Below are positions 5,330 through 18,611 of a DNA stretch of 30,258 nt, one piece after another. The stretch comes from a virus, in the IMG/VR virus record IMGVR_UViG_3300034120_001510, positions 1 to 30,258 of that record. One strand, written 5' to 3'. The notes under the pieces were generated by a model. It made no database searches, had not been told where the DNA came from, and was given only the letters and a program-made list of their open reading frames with translations. Within the stretch, counting starts at the first letter, position 1; each line of letters starts with the position of its first letter. The position numbers and the translations under genes were made by a program.

Positions 5330-5953
5330 CTATAGATTGAAACCTTCTAAACTATACTTAAATGGATTACCATCTATATTTTTTATTAATTCTAGCATTT
5401 CTTTTGCAATATTTTTGACTTCTAATTGAGCATTTTCTGTGTTACGTAGCCCAAGAAAATGAGCAAAACTTCTGAAGTTAAACATAACATCTGCTGAAAT
5501 TTGAGTATTATAGGTTCTAAAAAATCTTGCTGCCTCTTTAGCCCTTTTTCTACTAAAACCATGAGTATCCACTAAATCCTTGATGCACTCATGATACAAA
5601 TCTAACCCAGCCTTAGTATATGTTTCTAGTTTTTGTTGCCAAGTGTCTGGAAAATCAGAAGGTATATAAAAACAATCCTCTTTGATTTCTTTATATCTGG
5701 CTGATTCTGCATTAACAGAAATTCCAATGCGATGCTTTAATATATGTATGTGTGTTGCTATGTCTGTACATATCAAGAAATGTAGTGAAGACTTTTCAAA
5801 TGGCGTATGATGTCCCTCAGATGCTAGCATATAAAGCAACTTGTCTATTCTATTTCTTTTATCTTCTGTTAAATCTCTTGATGTGCTTGTCCATGCTGAT
5901 AATGCGTGTGTTTCATCGCCACCATAATATCCAATCAATTGTACTTTATTCAT
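5330..5953 (-). CDS. thyX: Flavin-dependent thymidylate synthase ThyX
   Basis: This 207-aa protein makes dTMP from dUMP using FAD and methylene-THF. Residues 43-60 (LASEGHHTPFEKSSLHF) and 73-87 (KHRIGISVNAESARY) are the nucleotide- and flavin-binding blocks. The second is a variant of the usual RHRx7SxRY: the first Arg is Lys and there is one extra residue before the SxRY. The rest (FYIPSDF, NFRSFAHFLGLRNTENAQLEV) fits the family. Its start overlaps the upstream gene by 8 bp and its stop nearly abuts the tmRNA. It works with the dCMP deaminase two genes upstream to supply dTTP. Confidence 0.93.
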   Translation of the reverse strand: MNKVQLIGYYGGDETHALSAWTSTSRDLTEDKRNRIDKLLYMLASEGHHTPFEKSSLHFLICTDIATHIHILKHRIGISVNAESARYKEIKEDCFYIPSDFPDTWQQKLETYTKAGLDLYHECIKDLVDTHGFSRKRAKEAARFFRTYNTQISADVMFNFRSFAHFLGLRNTENAQLEVKNIAKEMLELIKNIDGNPFKYSLEGFNL

Positions 5954-6277: not shown

Positions 6278-6718
6278 TTATATATACACACCAAGTTCAA
6301 CTACATCAATATTTGCACGATTAAAAATATCTTTAGATTGCTCTAATCTTTCTTTCCATCTGTCATTTTGACATACTATAGATACTACTCTCTTTATTCC
6401 TGCTTGGATCGTCATAGATGCACAATTAGTACATGGAAGAAATGGATATGTGTATAATGTAAAATTATGTAAATTACATTTCGCAGCTAGTATAGCATTC
6501 ATTTCTGCATGTATAATGTACTTATATTTTTCTTCTCTATTATTGAGGATGTTTACATCGTCACGTACAGACATTGGTAAACCATTATATCCAATAGATA
6601 TTACTTTGATGCCATCTGTAATTACTGCTCCAACTTGCGTTGATGGATCTTTAGACCAAGTTGAAATCAACTTAGCTAGCTCAAGAAATCTAATATCCCA
6701 TTTTAATGTTCTATTCAT
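6278..6718 (-). CDS. dcd: Deoxycytidylate deaminase
   Basis: This 146-aa zinc enzyme converts dCMP to dUMP for thymidylate synthesis. Residues 70-72 (HAE in IIHAEMNAI) and 95-99 (PCTNC) supply the zinc ligands His70, Cys96 and Cys99 and the proton shuttle Glu72. The N-terminal SKDPSTQVGAVI block and YNGLP loop are typical of ComEB/T4 Cd-type dCMP deaminases. The start overlaps the upstream stop (ATGA). With ThyX downstream it forms a dTMP supply module. The gene symbol follows T4 usage (cd/dcd). Confidence 0.93.
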   Translation of the reverse strand: MNRTLKWDIRFLELAKLISTWSKDPSTQVGAVITDGIKVISIGYNGLPMSVRDDVNILNNREEKYKYIIHAEMNAILAAKCNLHNFTLYTYPFLPCTNCASMTIQAGIKRVVSIVCQNDRWKERLEQSKDIFNRANIDVVELGVYI

Positions 6719-7088: not shown

Positions 7089-8333
7089 TTAGAATAGTTC
7101 TTTAATTACTCGTCCAGAATTAGCAATCTTCATTGGACGACCATTTTTAGAGGTAAATGTAGTTTCAAGTGAAATATCCAAACTTTTTAGTATAGTTGCC
7201 ATTAAATCTTCTGAAGAATAAGCTTCACTTATTACCTTTTTTCCATCATCATCAGTTTCACCAACAACTATGCCTTTGTTTAATTTTCCACCACCAACTA
7301 CAGCACTCCAGCTTCTAGCCCAGTGATCTCTACCAGCATTTTTATTTATATCTGGAGTTCTACCAAATTCCCCCATCCATATAATGGTGGTATTGTCATA
7401 CAATCCCCTACTTACTAGATCTTCAATTAATGCACTCATTCCAATATCCATTTGAGATAGTTTATCTGGTAGTGTTGTAAAAATATCCATATGATTATCC
7501 CATCCACCCATATCTACTTCTATGAATGGTACGCCAATTTCTACTAGTCTTCTTGCCATGAGACAACCTTTACCAAATGAAGTGTTGCCATATCTATCAC
7601 GAATGTTTTGTGGTTCTTTATTTATGTTTAAGACTTGAGTATGTGGACCAAACATTAAATCAACAGTTTTATTCAACATTTTAGCGTGATCGCTTGCTAA
7701 TTCTCCTCGTTTTTCTTGAATAAATTTGTTCTCTATTACTGATAGAACTTCTAATCTTCTTTGCACGGTTTGATAATCTACACTTGATTGTAAATTTCTA
7801 ATTGTTCCATTATAATCAACAACAAGTGGGGAATATGTAGCACCTAAAAACCCCGGACCAATACTGGCACCACCTATACTAATAAAAGGTGGTATTCCTA
7901 TCTGATTAGTAGTATTTTTTAACAATTCATGAGATATAACTGATCCATAACTTGGATATTCCACATTAGGATTAGGCACATATCCAGTATGCATATAGTA
8001 TCTACCTCTGCCATGATCAGCTTCCCTTGTACTCATACTGCGAACAATACTAAGATTATCCATGTTTTTAGATAATAATGGTAAATGCTCGCATATTTGT
8101 ATTCCATCGACATTAGTAGATATTGGTTTAAATGGTCCACCGCTTGGACTATTTGGTTTTAAATCCCAAATATCTATAGTACTAGGACCACCGCTCATCC
8201 ATAATAATATTGTACTTTTGTTTTGTTTTTTAAGTTTTTCAGCATTTGCTAAAATAGAATTCTGCAATAAAACTGTACTTGATGTAAGTGCAATTGTTCC
8301 ATTGAGATGCGATAAAAAATGTCTTCTGTTCAT
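7089..8333 (-). CDS. DUF1501 family protein, second of a tandem pair
   Basis: This 414-aa protein starts with a twin-arginine-like signal (MNRRHFLSHLNGTIALTSS), predicting Tat export. The mature part has the DUF1501 layout: WMSGGPSTIDIWDLKP at about residue 45, GGPFKPISTNVDGIQICEHL, a DHGRGRYYMHTGY block, GGWDNH, and near the C-terminus EFGRTPDINKNAGRDHW. DUF1501 proteins belong to the alkaline phosphatase/sulfatase-like fold and are abundant in planctomycetes and relatives; most have no proven substrate. The Asp/His residues in GGWDNH and GRDHW are candidate metal ligands. The start overlaps the stop of the first DUF1501 gene (ATGA). Identity to the partner is moderate, so the duplication is old or the two were acquired separately. 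Confidence 0.92.
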   Translation of the reverse strand: MNRRHFLSHLNGTIALTSSTVLLQNSILANAEKLKKQNKSTILLWMSGGPSTIDIWDLKPNSPSGGPFKPISTNVDGIQICEHLPLLSKNMDNLSIVRSMSTREADHGRGRYYMHTGYVPNPNVEYPSYGSVISHELLKNTTNQIGIPPFISIGGASIGPGFLGATYSPLVVDYNGTIRNLQSSVDYQTVQRRLEVLSVIENKFIQEKRGELASDHAKMLNKTVDLMFGPHTQVLNINKEPQNIRDRYGNTSFGKGCLMARRLVEIGVPFIEVDMGGWDNHMDIFTTLPDKLSQMDIGMSALIEDLVSRGLYDNTTIIWMGEFGRTPDINKNAGRDHWARSWSAVVGGGKLNKGIVVGETDDDGKKVISEAYSSEDLMATILKSLDISLETTFTSKNGRPMKIANSGRVIKELF

Positions 8334-9619
8334 ATCAATTCTTTCATATATGGATGGTCTACTAAGTATTGTGGTCTTCCTGTTGTATCAATAATAGTAG
8401 TTGAGGAAGTTTCTACACCAAGAGTGTTATATATTGTAGCTACCACTTCTTGAAAATCAACAGGTCTATCTACAGCATATTCACCAAGTTTATTCGTTGA
8501 TCCAATAACCTGTCCATGTTTCAATCCGCCACCAAATAATAAAGCGCTATTTACTTGAGGCCAATGATCTCTTCCTGCGTCCTTATTAATTTTTGGTGTT
8601 CGTCCAAACTCTCCCCAAACTATAACTAATGTATTATCAAGCATATCTGATGTCTGTAAGTCATCTATTAAAGCCGATAAGCATTGATCTAATTTAGATC
8701 CATGATCTTTAACTAAATCAAAATTAGCACCATGACTATCCCATCTACCATAACTCAAAGATACAACTCTAGCCCCTGCTTCAAGCAGTCTTTTTGCTAT
8801 TAATAATTGACTATTATCTGTGGGCGCTCCATCATATTGATATTTATAAGGCTTACCATCTCCATATTTTTCTAATATGTCTTTGTTTACCTTAGATATA
8901 TCTAGTGCTTGTAATAACTTATTATCTGTCAATATTTCAAATGACTTTTCAACATGTTTATCATAACTATTAAATCTTAGATTAAAATCAATATCTTGCT
9001 TAAGTTGATCTAATTGTAATAATAGATTTTTTCTATCATACAATCTTTTAGCATCAATATGAAGAGTCATATCTTTAATACTATCCCCACTTGGCTTAAA
9101 TGGATTATAAGTCTGGCCTAAAAATCCTCCAGTACCAGAATCACTCCAAGGCATGTGCTGCGTTGGTGCTGCTAGACCAATGTATGCTGGTATAGATGGA
9201 TCGTTTGAGCCATGTAGTCTAGATATAACAGAGCCTATAGATGGTCTACCACCAATATTTTTTAAATTATCTGGCTTCCATCCTGTCATGCATTGAAATG
9301 CAGCATGATCTCCATGAGAATTAATTATTGATCTTATGATAGAACATTTATCAATCCTTTTCGATAGTTTATCGAATACTTCACAAATTTGTATTCCATT
9401 TACATTGGTAGAAATTGGCTTAAATAATCCCCTTATTTCTGATGGAGCGTCTGGTTTTAAATCCCACAAATCGAGATGTGGTGGTCCTCCAGCCAAAAAT
9501 ATATTGATTAAATTCTTTTTTTTTCCATTGATTGTATCTGCTTTCAATATATCTGGCAAAGCAAGGGTATAGCTACTAAAACATAATGATCCTATTGATA
9601 AAAAATGTCTTCTATTCAT
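8330..9619 (-). CDS. DUF1501 family protein, first of a tandem pair
   Basis: The ATG at 9619 is preceded by GGAAT and opens a Tat-like signal (MNRRHFLSIGSLCFSSYTLA); a longer frame from 9667 would bury the signal. The 429-aa product has FLAGGPPHLDLWDLKPDAPS at residues 41-60, GLFKPISTNVNGIQIC, SHGDHAAFQCMTGWKP, RWDSHGANF and EFGRTPKINKDAGRDHW. All are diagnostic of DUF1501, a sulfatase/phosphatase-superfamily group typical of planctomycetes. It is translationally coupled to the second copy. In host genomes DUF1501 usually pairs with DUF1549/DUF1553 genes; no such partner is present here, which is odd. The role in a phage is unknown; envelope or glycan hydrolysis is a guess. Confidence 0.92.
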   Translation of the reverse strand: MNRRHFLSIGSLCFSSYTLALPDILKADTINGKKKNLINIFLAGGPPHLDLWDLKPDAPSEIRGLFKPISTNVNGIQICEVFDKLSKRIDKCSIIRSIINSHGDHAAFQCMTGWKPDNLKNIGGRPSIGSVISRLHGSNDPSIPAYIGLAAPTQHMPWSDSGTGGFLGQTYNPFKPSGDSIKDMTLHIDAKRLYDRKNLLLQLDQLKQDIDFNLRFNSYDKHVEKSFEILTDNKLLQALDISKVNKDILEKYGDGKPYKYQYDGAPTDNSQLLIAKRLLEAGARVVSLSYGRWDSHGANFDLVKDHGSKLDQCLSALIDDLQTSDMLDNTLVIVWGEFGRTPKINKDAGRDHWPQVNSALLFGGGLKHGQVIGSTNKLGEYAVDRPVDFQEVVATIYNTLGVETSSTTIIDTTGRPQYLVDHPYMKELI

Positions 9620-9679: not shown

Positions 9680-10213
9680 TCACTCTTTAGTGAAGAATAT
9701 CCATCTATCTAGTAGATCAATATTTATTGAATCATTAACTTCATGTAAATAATCTAGAATTTCGTACATTCTACTGAATATATGTTCATGTGGCAACATA
9801 AAAAATAACCAATTTGGGGCATTATGCTTGCCTTGTTCGCACCAAACCAATACTGGTTTTTTTTGCCTATTAGCTGTGACAATTTCTTCATATGAACCAC
9901 ACATATGAACACTCATATCTATTCTGGCTATAATAAAGTCAGATACGTCAACACATCTTAAGTCAGCATTTCTTATATGTCCATACTCTTGTTTAATCTT
10001 ATTAAATTGTCCAGTATTTTTATAGTGGTCTATAACAGATCTTGTAGTCTCATCTTCTTTTATGAGTTTAATAGGCTTATTACATGGATTAATTACATTT
10101 ATATTTAGATATTTTAATGGTGGAGTAATCATATCTCTCCAACCTTTGCCACCATCAGCCACTCTATCCATAGGACCGACAAGATAGGTTCTCATACCAT
10201 TTAGATTGTTCAT
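9680..10213 (-). CDS. Nucleoside 2-deoxyribosyltransferase-like protein
   Basis: The 177-aa product starts at the ATG at 10213, overlapping the previous stop (ATGA), with GGTGG as ribosome site. MRTYLVGPMDRVADGGKGW near the N-terminus, ADLRCVDVSDFIIARID in the middle and CGSYEEIVTANRQKKPVLVW fit the NDT-like Rossmann fold (DUF4406-type). There the GPM loop binds nucleotide and the Glu of GSYEE is the expected catalytic residue. Family members exchange bases on deoxynucleosides or hydrolyse nucleotide N-glycosidic bonds. It sits downstream of GMP reductase, which supports nucleotide metabolism. Substrate is not determinable. Confidence 0.7.
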   Translation of the reverse strand: MNNLNGMRTYLVGPMDRVADGGKGWRDMITPPLKYLNINVINPCNKPIKLIKEDETTRSVIDHYKNTGQFNKIKQEYGHIRNADLRCVDVSDFIIARIDMSVHMCGSYEEIVTANRQKKPVLVWCEQGKHNAPNWLFFMLPHEHIFSRMYEILDYLHEVNDSINIDLLDRWIFFTKE

Positions 10214-10377
10214 AATGTCCACCAGCCAATTTTATTTAATTCATACCAAAGTAATCCTAGATTAGCAAATGTATATCCAGACCACATTACTCCATGTGAA
10301 TAATCCTTTTGCACAAAACAAGAAATAGCCACACATAAATATAGTATTGTAGATATTGTTACACAAGTTGGTCCCAT
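10210..10377 (-). CDS. Small two-span membrane protein
   Basis: A 55-aa frame fills the gap between guaC and the NDT-like gene exactly. Its ATG overlaps the guaC stop by one base (TAATG), and its stop overlaps the next ATG (ATGA). It starts MGPTCVTISTILYLCVAI and ends in NKIGWWTL, with hydrophobic segments at about residues 5-22 and 30-46. Perfect coupling on both sides argues that it is real. No family is recognised. Confidence 0.7.
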   Translation of the reverse strand: MGPTCVTISTILYLCVAISCFVQKDYSHGVMWSGYTFANLGLLWYELNKIGWWTL

Positions 10378-11504
10378 TATATACTCTTATCAAAATGAGT
10401 TCTATTGACCATAATAAATTCTGCACACTTTGGTAAATCTTTAAGTGATGTTGCTCCTATATAAGCACAAGCACTTCTTATACCACCCATTATATCATTC
10501 ATAATCTCAGATGCACAACCCTTATATGGAATTTTAATTACTCTTCCTTCGCTGGCACGATAATTTTTTATTCCACCATATTTTTCTTGTGCCTTATGTG
10601 AACTCATTCCATAAAATAGTAATGATTTTTTTCTTTTTTCTGGTGGATTGTAACCCGGATCATTTTGTTGCCACCACTCATTAACAACATTTCTATCATT
10701 ATCTATGATAGCACAGCGATATTCATATTCCCATTCTCCCTCGCACTGATCAGTTCCAGCAAGCATACCACCAAGCATCACGAAGTCTGCGTTTGCCGCA
10801 AAAGCCTTTACAACGTCTGAGGGTGTTCTACATCCACCGTCTGCACAAATCAATCCTAGACGCCTGTCTTCGCTTTTTAAACCATGAGCAGCGTGTGAGC
10901 ATTCAGATATTGCAGATAACTGTGGAAAACCCACTCCAGTTTTTAATCTTGTAGTACAAGCAGAGCCGGGGCCAATACCAACTTTAACTATATCTACTCC
11001 ACCATGTAAAATAAGTTCCTGCACCATCTCTGGTGTACATACATTACCAGCCATAATAATTGGTTGAGTGCCAAAAGTATCCCTAACTTTTCTACAATAA
11101 TTTACAAAGTCATCAGTATATCCATTTGCAACATCTATACAAATATTTGGTATAAATCCAACATCATCTATGATATATCTTATCTTATCTAGATCTTCAT
11201 TTTTAATACCAACACTTAACCATTGAGAATGGACGTTACAAAAATGATTTTGATAATCTTGCTTAGTATAATGTTTATGTAGACATGTTATGGCTTTATA
11301 TTCTGATAATTTATCAGCCATTTCAAATGTACCAGTGGAATCCATATTTGCAGACATTATTGGTAAGCCTGTCCACTGCCTTGTAGAGTGATAGAATGAG
11401 AATGTTCTATCAATACTTACTTCTTTTCTTGATGCTGCCCTAGATCGTTGTGGAACTAGTAAAACATCATCAAAATCTAATTTAATATCTGTCTGTATTT
11501 TCAT
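10377..11504 (-). CDS. guaC: GMP reductase (IMPDH/GMPR family)
   Basis: This 375-aa TIM-barrel enzyme converts GMP to IMP with NADPH. Residues 173-190 (VKVGIGPGSACTTRLKTG) hold the catalytic Cys183 loop and phosphate site. ADGGCRTPSDVVKAFAA and FVMLGGMLAGTDQCEGE follow, then FYGMSSHKAQEKYGG and YRASEGR, which distinguish GMP reductase from IMP dehydrogenase. There are no CBS domains. It is slightly longer than bacterial GuaC (about 347 aa). It heads a run with a small membrane protein and an NDT-like protein. In a phage it may redirect host guanine nucleotides toward adenine nucleotides. Confidence 0.9.
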   Translation of the reverse strand: MKIQTDIKLDFDDVLLVPQRSRAASRKEVSIDRTFSFYHSTRQWTGLPIMSANMDSTGTFEMADKLSEYKAITCLHKHYTKQDYQNHFCNVHSQWLSVGIKNEDLDKIRYIIDDVGFIPNICIDVANGYTDDFVNYCRKVRDTFGTQPIIMAGNVCTPEMVQELILHGGVDIVKVGIGPGSACTTRLKTGVGFPQLSAISECSHAAHGLKSEDRRLGLICADGGCRTPSDVVKAFAANADFVMLGGMLAGTDQCEGEWEYEYRCAIIDNDRNVVNEWWQQNDPGYNPPEKRKKSLLFYGMSSHKAQEKYGGIKNYRASEGRVIKIPYKGCASEIMNDIMGGIRSACAYIGATSLKDLPKCAEFIMVNRTHFDKSI

Positions 11505-11595: not shown

Positions 11596-12471
11596 TCAAA
11601 TATAAACAACATCCCTGTTCTTTTGGATGACAGTATTTACCTTATTAATCTTTGCAGTAATTTCCTCAACCCATTCACGATTACGCTTCTTGGTATTCAT
11701 ATACTGAATATCTTCTGTCGTAAGATGAACAACCTTATCAAATACAGAAGTAAATTCTGCAACTACTTCATATCGACAGCAACGAAGTTTTTGAAACTTA
11801 GAATCAGATGGAACACTCACAACGTCACGCGGATTAACCTTACAAATCATAAGGCGATTTCCACCATCATTATCATCATCCTCATCATCAATCTTAATTC
11901 CACCATAACTCTTTGCATAATCAATCGCACCAACGTGTAGGCCATGACCACAACCATTATCACGATTGCTATCTACCTTATTACGAGGAACAGAACAAAC
12001 GCTACCAACACTATTATCAAACGTTCCAGAATACATGTCTCTATAGTCATTCTTAACAGCCTTATATGCTAGAAAACATCCATCAGACGTAATTGGCATA
12101 TTCTTATTCTTCATAAAGTCAAACAATTCAACAATGGCATGATCAGATGGATTCTGACTCATATTATCAAGGAAATTAAGCATTGGCTCAAACGGAAATC
12201 CCTGCTTAATCATATCAATGATAGTATCACCAAACATATTTGGCATCTTAATACCATCCCACATTAGATTATTACCGTCACAAGCAATATATCCTTCACA
12301 GAAATTATTAATATGAGAAACAACATCATAGTAAGCCTCAAACATCTCAATATTATTCTTCTTCAGACAATTTACAAGCTTATCATAGTTAGGATGAGAC
12401 TTACCAAAAAAGTAACTCTGATTACTAACAATCGCACTAACATTACCATCATTTGCTATAATATACTTCAT
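11596..12471 (-). CDS. rIIB: rIIB-like protein
   Basis: This 291-aa protein matches the rIIB-like phage family. GCFLAYKAVKNDYRDMYSGT (131-150) and FDNSVG lead into VPRNKVDSNRDNGCGHGLHVGAIDYAKSYGG (161-191). It follows rIIA by three bases, with an AAGGAG site inside the end of rIIA, as in T4. In T4, RIIA and RIIB form a membrane-associated pair involved in lysis timing and in resisting the lambda Rex exclusion system; the biochemical activity is still unclear. An acidic Asp-rich stretch lies at about 193-202. Confidence 0.9.
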   Translation of the reverse strand: MKYIIANDGNVSAIVSNQSYFFGKSHPNYDKLVNCLKKNNIEMFEAYYDVVSHINNFCEGYIACDGNNLMWDGIKMPNMFGDTIIDMIKQGFPFEPMLNFLDNMSQNPSDHAIVELFDFMKNKNMPITSDGCFLAYKAVKNDYRDMYSGTFDNSVGSVCSVPRNKVDSNRDNGCGHGLHVGAIDYAKSYGGIKIDDEDDDNDGGNRLMICKVNPRDVVSVPSDSKFQKLRCCRYEVVAEFTSVFDKVVHLTTEDIQYMNTKKRNREWVEEITAKINKVNTVIQKNRDVVYI

Positions 12472-12474
12472 TAC

Positions 12475-14601
12475 TCACTCCTTGTTAAGAACAGAAATTT
12501 GTTCAGTGCTATCAATATAGTCGGCAATAATTTGCCTGTCCTCATCAGAATAAGGCACATTGCGAATTACCTGCAAAATTTTATACTTAGACATTTCCTT
12601 ATCAAATCGTGGAGCAAAACGATCATCCATAAAATTACTATCTCTACCGGGAAATATAATCCTAAAAGAAATAGCCATTTGTCTTATAACTTCAACCTTC
12701 TCACAAATGTTGTCTAATCGAGACACGTATTCATTATACTCAGAAATTACGTTTTTTACAACAGATGGATTTTTAGTCATATTGATAATCTCTACCCATC
12801 TGTTTGAAAACTTACTGGAAAGACTCTGACGATTCATTATATCATGAATATCTTGATGATTATAAGCAATAATATCGGTCAAAATCTTTCTAATAAATTC
12901 ATATCCCAAATGCCAATTCGATCTCTCGTCTAGCTTCCTATTCTTTGCAACAGATGGCTTGACAATATAAAATGTCTTTCCTTCCACTTCATCATTGTGA
13001 TGATCATGCATGTAAGACAAGATCTTTTCAAGATAATAAATCTGTACAACACCATAAGATGAAGAAGAAATATGAACCTCGCCCTTTGACTCTGTAAAAT
13101 AATATGCATTTTCATATTTTACACTCATTGCACATTCTTCAAAGCAACCAGACTCTTCATTAAAAACTCGGGCTTGAATCATTGGCCCGCTATTTCCACC
13201 AGAAGAATTACGATTATACTCTACCTTTGGAAGATTAGATGTAAATACAACATCATCCTTTGTCGCTCCACCAAGTATATCATACAATCTACAGTTGTCA
13301 ATCGTTTCTCCATGTCCTAACTTATAAAAATAACAGGCTACGTTGTTATTAAATTCTTTGATATATTGCTTTGTACGACTAATTCCTCCGCGTGGAAGAT
13401 CATCGACAACAAACTTAACAGCATCTGTAAAATGTATACGGTTAGTGTCTATCTTCATATCAATCTTAGAACGATATGACGACTTCTCAAAAAGTTTAAC
13501 TGTCATATTTGGAATGTCAATACTTTCAGACACAATATTGTCAAACAGTTTTTGATCATTCCAAACTATTGACTTCATGAGAGATTCCATAGCAGTCTTT
13601 ATAGACATGCACTGATCAGAAATCTGCACATACTTACTTCGTGCCTTAAACAGAGTAGGCTGACTTTTAATTTCATGTTCAATCTGTGTTGCAATATCGT
13701 CCAATATCTTAGAGATAATATTATTGATATTGATCTTAGTCTGCTTGCTATAAGAAAGAGACTCACGACTTGGAGTGATATCAACATCTCCAATATTAAC
13801 AATGATCCTAAGACCACTAGAATATTCAACAAATCTACTGTTCTTCTTGGATGAATCAATTCCATCAACTATAATTTGATTATGGTCGATAGGATATGCA
13901 ATTTGCCCCATGATGATATAGTTCTTATCATCGTTATCATCAAAGTACCAATTATCACCACTAAGAGTCTTATTCTCAGCATCGTAATAAATTTCTTCGC
14001 CAATAAAATTTGGCCTAACATTAAAGAATTCATAAACCTTACGTGCCTCACGCACAAAACGGTCTATGTCATATTCATTAACACTAATTGAAACCTTAAT
14101 GCCATTTGCTTCATTGGTTTCGCTGGTATCCATCAAAGAAAATATGGGATTACCGTCCTCATTCTTATAAGCATTATAAAGACGGCGAGTACCATCAAGA
14201 TATGCTTCAACAGTAAAACTATCACCATATGCAAATGGTGCCTTACTGCCAAGACCCAAGCAACCAACAGCGTCATTACTATTATTACGTGTGCTACGAA
14301 AATAAGTAGTGTAAAGTTCCATGCAATGTTCATGACTCATGCTGGTGCCGTAGTCACGAATATAAAATATAGGATTAAGCCTAGTTGGAAGATGAACATC
14401 AAATTGAACATCTTTCTTGCCAGCATCTACATGAGAATCGTAAGCATTAGTAGAAAGCTCACGAACTACTGCAAGGATCTTATTAGAATAAAGACCATCA
14501 GAAAGAATAAAGAAAGCCTTGGCAGATGCCTCGATACTGAACTGGCTTTCCTCAAAATCACCAGACTTTTCAATCGTGTTAATACCAGCATGAAGTTTCA
14601 T
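12475..14601 (-). CDS. rIIA: rIIA-like protein with GHKL ATPase domain
   Basis: This 708-aa protein begins with a GHKL/HATPase domain: N-box VRELSTNAYD (46-55), G1 RDYGTSMS (82-89) and G2 VGCLGLGSKAPFAY (112-125). The remainder (about 200-700) is the long phage-specific part typical of rIIA-like proteins. GAGGA serves as ribosome site and a perfect consensus promoter lies directly upstream. It is a single transcription unit with rIIB. In T4 this pair affects lysis inhibition and exclusion of superinfecting or prophage-encoded systems. ATPase activity is predicted from the motifs, not known. Confidence 0.92.
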   Translation of the reverse strand: MKLHAGINTIEKSGDFEESQFSIEASAKAFFILSDGLYSNKILAVVRELSTNAYDSHVDAGKKDVQFDVHLPTRLNPIFYIRDYGTSMSHEHCMELYTTYFRSTRNNSNDAVGCLGLGSKAPFAYGDSFTVEAYLDGTRRLYNAYKNEDGNPIFSLMDTSETNEANGIKVSISVNEYDIDRFVREARKVYEFFNVRPNFIGEEIYYDAENKTLSGDNWYFDDNDDKNYIIMGQIAYPIDHNQIIVDGIDSSKKNSRFVEYSSGLRIIVNIGDVDITPSRESLSYSKQTKININNIISKILDDIATQIEHEIKSQPTLFKARSKYVQISDQCMSIKTAMESLMKSIVWNDQKLFDNIVSESIDIPNMTVKLFEKSSYRSKIDMKIDTNRIHFTDAVKFVVDDLPRGGISRTKQYIKEFNNNVACYFYKLGHGETIDNCRLYDILGGATKDDVVFTSNLPKVEYNRNSSGGNSGPMIQARVFNEESGCFEECAMSVKYENAYYFTESKGEVHISSSSYGVVQIYYLEKILSYMHDHHNDEVEGKTFYIVKPSVAKNRKLDERSNWHLGYEFIRKILTDIIAYNHQDIHDIMNRQSLSSKFSNRWVEIINMTKNPSVVKNVISEYNEYVSRLDNICEKVEVIRQMAISFRIIFPGRDSNFMDDRFAPRFDKEMSKYKILQVIRNVPYSDEDRQIIADYIDSTEQISVLNKE

Positions 14602-14679: not shown

Positions 14680-15363
14680 TTAGTTTTTTGTTGCTTGTAT
14701 ATAATTCTTAATTCTATCAATCTTATTCATGCCACCCATAAAATGTATGATACCATTATTAAGCATAGTACCATTGAGTGATTTATCCCAAATATTAATA
14801 TGATGTTTTTTATTTGCACTAGATGCAAAATTAAAATAATCAATATTCATATATTTTGGCATAGATAATATATACGATTGTTCTCCTAGATGGATTTTTC
14901 TTAGATCATCAATAGATATTGACTGATTGAAGATACGTGTATGCTCTTTATCTAAAACAAAAATTCCAGAATTTCCTCCAACAAAATCTATTCCGGTTAT
15001 GGATTCCCATTGTGGTTTACATTTTTTGTAATGTTCATAGTTATTTCCAAAGTCATTGTAATAATAAACACAAACGCCAAAATGATTTCTTGGTGTAAAT
15101 TCAAATAAGTTAATACAGCCATCAGGAATATAACAGTCACAATCAATAAATGCAACTCTATCATATTCTTCTAGATATGTTTTTACTTGAAATTTTTCAA
15201 AAGTAGCATCATTCCAAGTGTCTCCAGTTGTTATTCTTGCGTCTGTAATTATATGAAAATCTGAATGACATTTATTGGCATATTTTTTTAGACTATCTTT
15301 AGTCATATCTAAAACTTCTAAAAACTTATCTCTAAGTGCCACAGTGACGATAGCCTGTTTCAT
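14680..15363 (-). CDS. Glycosyltransferase, GT-A fold (GT8-like)
   Basis: This 227-aa protein starts MKQAIVTVALRDKF and has the acidic metal/sugar-nucleotide site VAFIDCDCYIPD at about residues 70-81. Later come GGNSGIFVLDKEHTRIFN and, near the end, GIIHFMGG, a pattern shared with GT8 and GMA12-like transferases. It likely adds a hexose from a nucleotide sugar to DNA, protein or a surface glycan. The start is two bases after the stop of the upstream transferase-like gene. Acceptor and sugar are unknown. Confidence 0.75.
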   Translation of the reverse strand: MKQAIVTVALRDKFLEVLDMTKDSLKKYANKCHSDFHIITDARITTGDTWNDATFEKFQVKTYLEEYDRVAFIDCDCYIPDGCINLFEFTPRNHFGVCVYYYNDFGNNYEHYKKCKPQWESITGIDFVGGNSGIFVLDKEHTRIFNQSISIDDLRKIHLGEQSYILSMPKYMNIDYFNFASSANKKHHINIWDKSLNGTMLNNGIIHFMGGMNKIDRIKNYIQATKN

Positions 15364-17024: not shown

Positions 17025-17093
17025 TCAGATGCTTGAGATTTTTTTTGTCACTATGGTTCAAATTTTGTGTATAGTATTCTGGAGGTTCGAATT

Positions 17094-17678
17094 ATGAAAT
17101 TCAAAGACCAAATATTAGAATTAAGAAATTTAGGTTATTCATACAGGCAAATACAAGAAAAATTAAACTGCTCTAAAGGAACTATTGCTTATCACTGTGG
17201 TCAGGGACAAAAGGATAAAACTGCAAATAGAAGAATATCGAATAGATCTAAGCAGCATCCATTGGTTAGAAAAATAGAATACTTTAAGTATAAATACGAT
17301 AAACCATTATTGAAATTGTCTACAGAAAATAAGACACTTAATAGGATATTAAGATTAAAAATAGAATCATTTTCTATAATAGACAAAGGAGTATATAACA
17401 ATATGTCTTTTACGGTACAAGAATTCTTAAATAAAGTTGGAGATAATCCGATTTGCTCTTTAACTGGTAGACCTATAAATTTAATGAAGCCATCAACTTA
17501 TCAATTAGATCATATAGTTCCAAGATCTAAAGGGGGGTCAAATAATATAGATAACTGCCAACTACTTTGTAAAGAAGCTAATCAAGCTAAACATGATTTA
17601 ACTACGAAAGAATTTATACGACTTTGCAAAGAAATAGTAGATTACAATAAGCTCCGAGAACAAGATTCGAACTTGTAA
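17094..17678 (+). CDS. HNH homing-type endonuclease with N-terminal HTH
   Basis: One of only two convincing plus-strand genes. GGAGG eight bases upstream fixes the start at 17094 (194 aa). Residues 11-36 (RNLGYSYRQIQEKLNCSKGT) are a helix-turn-helix of the resolvase/homeodomain type. Residues 119-168 form an HNH nuclease: ICSLTGRP, then YQLDHIVPRSKGGSNNIDN and CKEANQAKHD, with Asp139/His140, Asn154 and His168 as likely catalytic and metal residues. Such free-standing HNH genes spread by cutting and homing. Its last 27 bases are antisense to tRNA-Asn, so the gene is wedged against the tRNA array. Opposite orientation to everything nearby suggests an insertion. Confidence 0.85.
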   Translation: MKFKDQILELRNLGYSYRQIQEKLNCSKGTIAYHCGQGQKDKTANRRISNRSKQHPLVRKIEYFKYKYDKPLLKLSTENKTLNRILRLKIESFSIIDKGVYNNMSFTVQEFLNKVGDNPICSLTGRPINLMKPSTYQLDHIVPRSKGGSNNIDNCQLLCKEANQAKHDLTTKEFIRLCKEIVDYNKLREQDSNL

Positions 17679-17723
17679 CCTAGCGGTTAACAGCCGCTTG
17701 CACTACCGTTGTGCTATCTCGGA
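17652..17723 (-). tRNA. tRNA-Asn (GTT)
   Basis: Acceptor TCCGAGA pairs with TCTCGGA. The anticodon arm is GCGGC-TGTTAAC-type with anticodon GTT, and the T arm is ACAAG-TTCGAAT-CTTGT. The discriminator is G and no CCA is encoded. It is the last gene of the four-tRNA array, and its 3' part overlaps the HNH gene on the other strand. Confidence 0.92.
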
Positions 17724-17727
17724 ATAA

Positions 17728-17798
17728 TTCGGGAACTAGGATTTGAACCTAGACAAAATGATCCAAAGTCATTTGTGCTACCGTTACACCATTCCCGA
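17728..17798 (-). tRNA. tRNA-Gln (TTG)
   Basis: Acceptor TCGGGAA pairs with TTCCCGA. The anticodon arm AATGA-CTTTGGA-TCATT gives TTG, and the T arm is CTAGG-TTCAAAT-CCTAG. Discriminator A; no encoded CCA. Only four bases separate it from tRNA-Asn. Confidence 0.92.
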
Positions 17799-17802
17799 TC
17801 AA

Positions 17803-17873
17803 AGCCCACAGAGGGAATCGAACCCCCTTCCGATGATTACAAATCAACTGTAATACCATTATACTATGCGGGC
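17803..17873 (-). tRNA. tRNA-Thr (TGT)
   Basis: Acceptor GCCCGCA pairs with TGTGGGC (one G-U). The anticodon loop TTTGTAA gives TGT. The anticodon stem GTTGA/TCATC has one mismatch. The T arm is GGGGG-TTCGATT-CCCTC. Discriminator T; no CCA encoded. Confidence 0.88.
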
Positions 17874-17878
17874 AATAA

Positions 17879-17951
17879 TAGGAGCGGTGGGATTCGAACC
17901 CACACTTTAAGGATTTTAAGTCCTTTGACTCTGCCGTTGGTCTACACTCCC
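17879..17951 (-). tRNA. tRNA-Leu (TAA) with short variable arm
   Basis: Acceptor GGGAGTG pairs with CGCTCCT, the anticodon arm is AAGGA-CTTAAAA-TCCTT (anticodon TAA, reading UUA), and the T arm is GTGGG-TTCGAAT-CCCAC. The variable region is only about 5 nt, whereas bacterial leucine tRNAs normally carry a long class II arm. Either the phage gene has a reduced form or its charging identity differs from the anticodon prediction. It is first in the array, about seven bases from the predicted transcript start. Confidence 0.85.
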
Positions 17952-17964
17952 AAACTACAGATTC

Positions 17965-17993: not shown

Positions 17994-18611
17994 TCACGAC
18001 TTTACACCATTGTCAAGTATCCATTTAGAATTAATTCTATTCATTAGATCGGCTATAGAAATTTCACTAGTTTTTAGACAATCACCCTTATTACATGGAA
18101 CTAATAATTTCCAAGGAGAATTTGGATAATATAACTCATTACCAGAATGAAAACGTATCTGATTATCTATATTACATACTATACCCTTTTTATCAATATT
18201 ATTCTTAATATTGATTGCCCCATTTAATGAAGTTACATAACCATCTCCTAATAATGCCAATCTGATTACGTCTATATCTGGTGTAAAAAGAGAAATACAA
18301 TCCTCTATATGTGAAACAAACTCATCATGTAATTCAAGATCGTCCTCTATGAAGCACATAAATGGAATATTGTTTTCTATTTGATGTTTAATGGCATTAT
18401 ATTTTGTTAGAAAGTTAGCTAGAGTACCATATGTCGGATAATGTAGTCTATGATATACAAGACCACTAGCCTTGAAAGCCCTCAATGTTTCATCAACATC
18501 GTATCCGTTAATAGATTTGATTACTTCAAAACATGGAAATTTTTGTATGTTGTTTTCTACAATATGTTTTCGATCTGCCCTAAGAAGCGATAATATGTAA
18601 TATTTAATCAT
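17994..18611 (-). CDS. Glycosyltransferase family 25-like
   Basis: This 205-aa protein starts IKYYILSLLRADRK, followed by FEVIKSINGYDVD. A GTLANFLTKYNAIKHQIE helix leads to the acidic catalytic-type motif CFIEDDLEL at residues 86-94. This order is characteristic of GT25 (LPS/procollagen-type) transferases, which add sugars to lipooligosaccharide cores or proteins. The start overlaps the stop of the zinc-ribbon gene (ATGA). It closes the cassette running from the DUF1559 gene. Confidence 0.8.
   Translation of the reverse strand: MIKYYILSLLRADRKHIVENNIQKFPCFEVIKSINGYDVDETLRAFKASGLVYHRLHYPTYGTLANFLTKYNAIKHQIENNIPFMCFIEDDLELHDEFVSHIEDCISLFTPDIDVIRLALLGDGYVTSLNGAINIKNNIDKKGIVCNIDNQIRFHSGNELYYPNSPWKLLVPCNKGDCLKTSEISIADLMNRINSKWILDNGVKS

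Follow-up and report, generated by a model that had tools for sequence, protein, structure and literature searches.

DUF1501 genes of probable planctomycete origin with twin-arginine starts in large uncultured phages

Two DUF1501 genes in a phage genome fragment

We analyzed the IMG/VR virus record IMGVR_UViG_3300034120_001510, positions 1 to 30,258 (this whole stretch of 30,258 nucleotides is called the window below), in which two adjacent genes encode proteins of the DUF1501 family (PF07394). Their identity and host origin can be stated with high confidence: judged from sequence comparisons, they are host-derived genes within a bona fide phage genome, as is the case for auxiliary metabolic genes. 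The pair is not an oddity of one contig but part of a broader pattern. The two genes and their main features are as follows.

7089..8333, minus strand: copy 1, DUF1501 subfamily I, 414 amino acids; PF07394 342.1 bits, profile positions 2-390 of 390
8330..9619, minus strand: copy 2, DUF1501 subfamily II, 429 amino acids from its ATG, upstream of copy 1; PF07394 278.1 bits, profile positions 2-382 of 390
8330..8333, minus strand: ATGA overlap of the copy 2 stop and the copy 1 start, read from the sequence
8226..8333, minus strand: twin-arginine signal region of copy 1, MNRRHFL...ANA, read from the sequence; RR in 60/60 phage representatives
9524..9619, minus strand: twin-arginine signal region of copy 2, MNRRHFL..., read from the sequence; RR in 60/60 phage representatives

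The curated cut-off of PF07394 is 27 bits, and both copies cover nearly the whole profile. These scores exclude chance resemblance, as do the relatives detected in viral contigs, 119 stretches for copy 1 and 27 for copy 2; a mixed DUF1501 profile yielded 503 related stretches, 80 of which were kept. An earlier, sequence-only reading of this DNA had described two adjacent full-length DUF1501 genes with RRHFL-type starts, and the profile scores, the MNRRHFL start of both proteins and the ATGA overlap bear this out. With a TTG start, the frame of copy 2 would reach 9667. The overlap suggests that translation of copy 2 and copy 1 is coupled. Neither copy showed a further Pfam match at E <= 0.001, including any glycan-binding domain, and neither was matched in 50,697 phage records or in PHROGs. 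A motif RR-x-[FILM] within the first 60 residues was present in 129/134 distinct phage DUF1501 proteins; of the other five, four are truncated at the edge of their contig, and the start of the fifth is extended and was probably called wrongly. From these starts, export of the phage proteins by the twin-arginine translocation (Tat) pathway is predicted.

The window was identified as a phage fragment by the presence of RIIA, RIIB, ThyX and a tmRNA, in agreement with the phage context claimed earlier. The same DUF1501 pair occurs in six other IMG/VR contigs from separate assemblies, which align with the window at 99.2-100% over 9.8-16.3 kb. That the contig might be cellular or an assembly chimera would fit the mainly cellular distribution of the DUF1501 family and the fact that no structural gene was recognized among the scanned open reading frames (ORFs) of the window. 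However, RIIA and RIIB are present, many relatives contain a terminase or RIIA, and the six matching contigs of different assemblies rule this explanation out, so that we assign it next to no probability. A 105-kb contig that is near-identical to the window (G008) carries a third DUF1501 gene, of subfamily III, starting about 1.0 kb past window position 1.

Relationship to planctomycete paralogues

The closest cellular relatives of the phage proteins are found in planctomycetes. A genome scan for relatives of copy 1, in which the best 80 of 585 confirmed relatives were considered, revealed 14 planctomycete loci at 56-64% identity to this subfamily I protein. A further search within one planctomycete order, in which six candidates were scored per genome, found slightly nearer relatives than the genome scan: subfamily I was detected at E <= 1e-170 in 104 of the 296 sampled genomes, with up to 66% identity. 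The best cellular matches reached 55-60% for subfamily II (7/16 genomes) and 52-63% for subfamily III (10/11 genomes). As I, II and III match different planctomycete paralogues, they are, on these sequence relationships, distinct host-derived paralogues and not products of phage duplication; duplication of one gene within the phage is ruled out, each of the three having its own cellular relatives. The earlier view of the two copies as a diverged pair was therefore not upheld: they represent different host paralogues, with the third copy just outside the window in the near-identical contig.

The proposed search of planctomycete genomes and a DUF1501 tree thus gave paralogues at 66, 60 and 63% identity at most for I, II and III, and phage copies nested with planctomycete genes. 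Chromosomal DUF1501 proteins of planctomycetes share with the phage proteins the twin-arginine start, the invariant residues and a match over the whole length. In contrast to them, the phage copies lie on contigs without DUF1553 (26/26), are stacked as paralogues and have phage replication and nucleotide genes as neighbors.

In the tree of subfamily I, phage sequences appear at two places. The clade of the window groups with one planctomycete set (Shimodaira-Hasegawa-like approximate likelihood ratio test, SH-aLRT, 99), while a second clade (L046-type) groups with the Rhodopirellula metagenome-assembled genomes NAT69 and SAT12 (SH-aLRT 91 and 89 in two trees). Placing all subfamily I phage sequences in one clade was rejected by the approximately unbiased (AU) test with 25 phage and 18 cellular rows (p-AU 4.8e-53), and still rejected after nearer cellular rows were included (27 + 27 rows, p-AU 4.6e-5); all trees are 'quick' searches. 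Subfamily I has accordingly been exchanged between hosts and phages on at least two occasions, which makes DUF1501 a clear case of repeated phage-host gene exchange. Given the wide distribution of the cellular gene within its order and its conserved setting, transfer from host to phage is the simpler direction; the reverse may have happened in single cases. The same relationships suggest that these phages infect Planctomycetota, and DUF1501 genes would then mark large phages of this phylum.

With respect to the cellular setting, genes for DUF1549/DUF1553 were detected with a profile that we constructed from four genes confirmed by Pfam. The usual cellular pairing with DUF1549/DUF1553, which had been described for host genomes, is real: such a gene occurs in 67/80 cellular DUF1501 loci. 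Among the 17 cellular subfamily I loci L144-L160 (L147 is truncated at this point), it immediately precedes DUF1501 in the same orientation in 16; it immediately follows DUF1501 in 2/4 subfamily II loci and lies two genes downstream in 5/5 subfamily III loci. DUF1553 was absent from the long phage contigs (0/26), compared with 27 matches in one planctomycete control. DUF1501 itself is abundant in planctomycetes: among 16 genomes, 12 gave 24-112 matches to copy 2 and four gave 2-14.

The absence of DUF1549/DUF1553 noted earlier for this phage thus extends to all 26 long relatives as far as DUF1553 is concerned, but not to every phage, since one other lineage carries its own gene. A DUF1549/DUF1553 match was found in 1/149 phage loci, and the lineage in three contigs, one of 152 kb:

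L294, 6001-8385 and 8926-10242: PSCyt1-DUF1549-DUF1553 gene and subfamily V DUF1501 gene, respectively; the lineage is also seen in L089 and L295

In L294, an ORF of 184 amino acids lies between these two genes, and a subfamily I gene is located upstream. According to one study, PSCyt genes are often found near sulfatase genes and were suggested to act on small carbohydrates, their function being unknown (PMC5615132).

Diversity and copy number in phages

The 26 long relatives (65-238 kb) were picked for carrying DUF1501, so that its presence in 26/26 is not a prevalence figure. Each contains one to four DUF1501 genes; these are minimum numbers, as a contig may not cover its whole genome. RIIA was found in 16/26; its profile also matches 3/14 control bacteria, and RIIA alone is therefore no proof of a phage. 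A terminase match was obtained for eight of the 26, six of them above the cut-off. The one terminase compared, that of G010, shares less than 26% identity with phage records among the matches listed, and for this reason no named phage group can be assigned. The Gp23 capsid family was not detected (0/26), a result that is uninformative since the controls were silent as well. Genes for DNA ligase, PhoH and UvsX occur in the relatives. Altogether, the carriers are large phages that lack close cultured relatives, and their DUF1501 genes are intact.

Clustering at 45% identity divided the 133 distinct phage proteins into six subfamilies (six also at 40%, seven at 50%), comprising 64 sequences in I (the subfamily of copy 1), 23 in II (that of copy 2), 19 in III, 21 in IV, one in V and five in VI. 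We counted 101 phage loci after dropping six repeats of the same contigs; many are short, and the numbers of genes per locus are lower bounds. A single DUF1501 gene was seen in 56 loci, two in 26, three in 14 and four in five, with an untyped DUF1501 piece in six of the 101. Among 35 close same-strand pairs (gap <=300 bases), none of the 34 typed on both sides joins two members of the same subfamily. The combinations are IV-III (8), IV-II (7), II-I (6), III-I (6), IV-I (2), VI-I (2), III-II, V-II and II-III (1 each) and one untyped pair; these counts include near-identical phages, and all six II-I pairs represent the phage of the window itself. Where several subfamilies co-occur, the recurrent order is IV-III-II-I.

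The earlier idea of a heterodimer of the two copies does not hold in this wider sample. Subfamily I is the sole DUF1501 seen in 46/101 loci (many of them short), five contigs of 187-238 kb contain exactly one DUF1501 match each, and the pairs fall into nine ordered combinations. Given these five contigs and the varying tandem partners, an obligate heterodimer of I and II is unlikely.

Other proteins recur around the phage DUF1501 genes. A protein family of which the single member scanned is a PAP2 phosphatase by Pfam was seen in 17/101 phage loci with DUF1501 (L044 6568-7236 and 16 more). Two families of small proteins whose N-termini resemble signal or membrane segments, as judged by eye, had no family match and occur in 17 (f22) and 30 (f4) loci, examples being:

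L095, 1575-1997: small recurring protein
L060, 9227-9529: small recurring protein

Conserved residues, fold and selection

Residue conservation was evaluated by aligning 60 phage representatives with 143 cellular sequences, positions being numbered as in copy 1. Eight residues (H107, D279, H281, D296, R325, R335, D336 and H337) are kept in 60/60 phage and at least 142/143 cellular rows. In the cellular members, the RR of the signal, H107, D279, H281, R325 and R335 are invariant, and D336 and H337 are conserved in all but one. The following positions refer to copy 1.

8013..8015, minus strand: H107, ten residues before G117; 60/60 phage and 143/143 cellular rows
7491..7499, minus strand: D279-x-H281 (GGWDNH); both positions in 60/60 phage and 143/143 cellular rows
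7365..7370, minus strand: E322-F323, set against the sulfatase Asp-His in a profile alignment to solved sulfatases, with E-values of 0.08 to 1.2 only
7323..7331, minus strand: R335-D336-H337 (GRDHW); all three in 60/60 phage rows

In the canonical two-metal alkaline phosphatase superfamily, an Asp-His ligand pair ends the strand before the segment that corresponds to EFGR. In the DUF1501 proteins, Glu-Phe aligns at this place with weak E-values (E in 58/60 and F in 60/60 phage rows; 137 and 138 of 143 cellular rows). Since Glu-Phe is also kept in the cellular rows, the phage copies are ordinary family members and not decayed ones. The metal-site comparison suggested earlier therefore gave a divided answer: the invariant acidic and histidine residues are intact, but the sulfatase Asp-His appears to be replaced by Glu-Phe nearly family-wide.

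The alkaline phosphatase/sulfatase fold assigned to DUF1501 in the sequence-only reading is supported by AlphaFold2 models of both copies. The model of copy 1 (predicted local distance difference test, pLDDT, 78.6) gave a VIA Z of 18.9 to PafA, with a root-mean-square deviation (rmsd) of 3.9 over 270 residues, and that of copy 2 (pLDDT 75.7) a VIA Z of 17.8 to SPAP (rmsd 4.0 over 264 residues). Structural matches of both models comprise PafA, SPAP, NPP-type phosphodiesterases and sulfatases; they have the overall fold in common, with Z up to 18.9 and rmsd of 3.1-4.3 over 227-274 residues among the rows listed. Foldseek recovered the same fold for copy 1 (best E 1.3e-7), with template modeling (TM) scores only up to 0.45. 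These enzymes differ from the DUF1501 proteins, however, by their low identity (10-17%), by the Asp-His in place of Glu-Phe and by the sulfatase motif. Formylglycine sulfatases (S1) have an active-site motif of the C-x-P-S-R type; no such motif was found in the ORFs longer than 350 amino acids of the loci examined, DUF1501 included. At the sequence level, when copy 1 was the sole query, a phmmer search of the PDB yielded nothing beyond chance matches; with the alignment an unrelated protein ranked best, followed by sulfatases at E 0.08 to 1.2. The best viral structural match, A0A6J5M742 of an uncultured Caudovirales phage in BFVD, also bears a DUF1501 name, but is a single database entry with 14% identity over the structural alignment.

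Ratios of nonsynonymous to synonymous substitution (dN/dS) of 0.06-0.14 in seven pairs indicate purifying selection, although the values are rough because several dS exceed 1; they support the selected function that had been suggested. All 14 DUF1501 fragments shorter than 350 amino acids run off contig ends, and frames are otherwise intact. That the copies are broken relatives lacking the metal site is thus ruled out by intact frames, by dN/dS and by the core residues, kept in 60/60 phage rows.

Possible role and alternative explanations

As a tentative proposal, to which we give somewhat less than even weight, the phage DUF1501 proteins might be enzymes with the phosphatase/sulfatase fold that leave the cytoplasm via Tat and supplement the DUF1549/DUF1553 modules of the host. 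The host Tat machinery would export the folded proteins during infection, and they would work beyond the cytoplasm using the catalytic residues common to the family. The host paralogues would mostly belong to DUF1501-DUF1549/DUF1553 modules, of which the phage would bring the DUF1501 half, sometimes several, depending on host DUF1549/DUF1553 proteins as partners. In this way the phage could sustain or redirect a step by which the host processes phosphate, sulfate or glycans in the periplasm, a take-over by gene dosage. Expression would be early or middle and not linked to lysis, as suggested by the neighbors guaC, ThyX, dCMP deaminase and RII and by the DNA ligase, PhoH and UvsX of the relatives. 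We infer partner binding, this timing and a benefit to the phage. In a bolder version, possible but less probable, the DUF1501 halves of several different host modules were acquired by planctomycete phages on repeated occasions and plug into cytochrome-linked host partners; a large periplasmic system would thereby come under viral control, with the stacked IV-III-II-I genes as an interchangeable set of specificities.

Several points weigh against the supplementation of host modules by planctomycete-derived proteins. The more distant cellular subfamily I locus L161 has no DUF1549/DUF1553 gene, and neither have two of the four cellular subfamily II loci. Subfamily IV reached only 42% identity at best in the 11 genomes searched, the separate cellular searches covering subfamilies I to IV. 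For II and III, independent phage origins were not demonstrated, one clade remaining unrejected (p-AU 0.64 and 0.097). The planctomycete host is deduced from gene relationships and Tat export from sequence alone, and several dS above 1 make the dN/dS values rough. Other bacteria pair DUF1501 with DUF1800 instead, as described in PMC5122149. Moreover, the literature searched, as far as its text was available, gives no function for DUF1501 or DUF1549/DUF1553 (for DUF1501: PMC5418858, PMC4452313, PMC4982196, PMC4960237, PMC5122149, PMC5587647, PMC5888151, PMC6329079, PMC6653060), and within a limited DUF1501 literature search no phage DUF1501 clusters were found in print.

The main rival is remodeling of the envelope or cell surface, which is possible but clearly less probable than supplementation of host modules. 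Here, exported DUF1501 would remove or alter phosphate- or sulfate-bearing groups or a polysaccharide of the host surface, thereby hiding a receptor and excluding rival phages. The twin-arginine start and a fold common to sulfatases, LtaS-type synthases and phosphodiesterases are compatible with it, several divergent paralogues would fit varied surfaces, the window copies lie near RIIA/RIIB, and a family with a PAP2 member is found in 17/101 phage loci. The DUF1501-DUF1800-chitin synthase clusters of some proteobacteria, as described in PMC5122149, likewise include DUF1501 with a twin-arginine motif among linked genes; their partners are DUF1800 and chitin synthase. This co-location with bacterial chitin synthase genes also suits surface remodeling with superinfection exclusion. 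However, the cellular genes most closely related to the phage copies are widespread paralogues located close to DUF1549/DUF1553 and not known surface-modifying genes, Pfam detects no glycan-binding or second domain in either copy, and no receptor is known.

Alternatively, the phage proteins could act as dominant negatives that bind and disable the host DUF1549/DUF1553 module, for example sparing energy or blocking a stress response. DUF1553 is indeed missing in 26/26 phage contigs, and in PMC2754498 a two-domain protein of Rhodopirellula baltica is discussed under the common stress response, beside an up-regulated extracytoplasmic function (ECF) sigma factor, its proposed regulator. A titrating protein, however, need not keep all core residues (60/60) under purifying selection, and one phage lineage has its own partner gene, so that we regard this idea as improbable. 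Equally doubtful is a role in internal membranes, in which phage proteins would remodel the invaginated membrane or the enlarged periplasm to allow replication or exit; the DUF1501 module was reported to occur preferentially in compartmentalized species of the Planctomycetes-Verrucomicrobia-Chlamydiae (PVC) group (cited in PMC4452313, PMC4960237 and PMC5122149), but this link is no more than a correlation in gene content. Neutral passengers that do nothing for the phage would agree with a copy number varying from 1 to 4, yet the intact frames, with all 14 short fragments at contig ends, the low dN/dS and the repeated exchange of subfamily I make this explanation very improbable.

Like auxiliary metabolic genes of phages, the DUF1501 genes are host-derived, intact and located near nucleotide-metabolism genes; they differ from the usual ones in their predicted export, their unknown reaction and the lack of either copy in PHROGs or phage records. 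Large viruses that probably infect planctomycetes and have captured putatively exported host enzymes suggest that the DUF1501 family matters in infection. As phages keep what pays, the small phage-selected set of I, II and III marks the copies worth assaying first within this abundant family.

Genomic context of the gene pair

The neighboring genes recognized in the window are listed below.

12475..14601, minus strand: RIIA-like protein; phrog_612, E 3.2e-123
11596..12471, minus strand: RIIB-like protein; phrog_609, E 1.3e-64
10377..11504, minus strand: guaC, GMP reductase; NCBIfam NF003470 426.8 bits, cut-off 397
9680..10222, minus strand: ORF of 180 amino acids between guaC and the DUF1501 pair; weak nucleoside deoxyribosyltransferase match, PF05014 19.8 bits, below the cut-off of 28.8
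6278..6718, minus strand: dCMP deaminase, downstream of the pair; phrog_174, E 7.4e-39
5330..5953, minus strand: ThyX thymidylate synthase, downstream of the pair; Pfam Thy1 104.8 bits
4976-5326, minus strand: tmRNA, tag peptide GVTQLALAA
20346..21278, minus strand: DUF1559 pseudopilin with N_methyl and an H-X9-DG end; PF07596 147.2 bits, PF07963, TIGR04294

The pair had been placed in an operon headed by guaC. While guaC is real, its place at the head of an operon is not borne out: minus-strand genes run further upstream via RIIB and RIIA, and the ORF of 180 amino acids intervenes between guaC and the DUF1501 pair. DUF1559 pseudopilins are a protein type common in planctomycetes. Weak glycosyltransferase matches were seen at 14680-15363 and 17994-18611 (minus strand). 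Finally, about 700 bases of the window (17025-17724), beside a tRNA cluster at 17651-17952, remained unaligned to the otherwise near-identical 105-kb contig.

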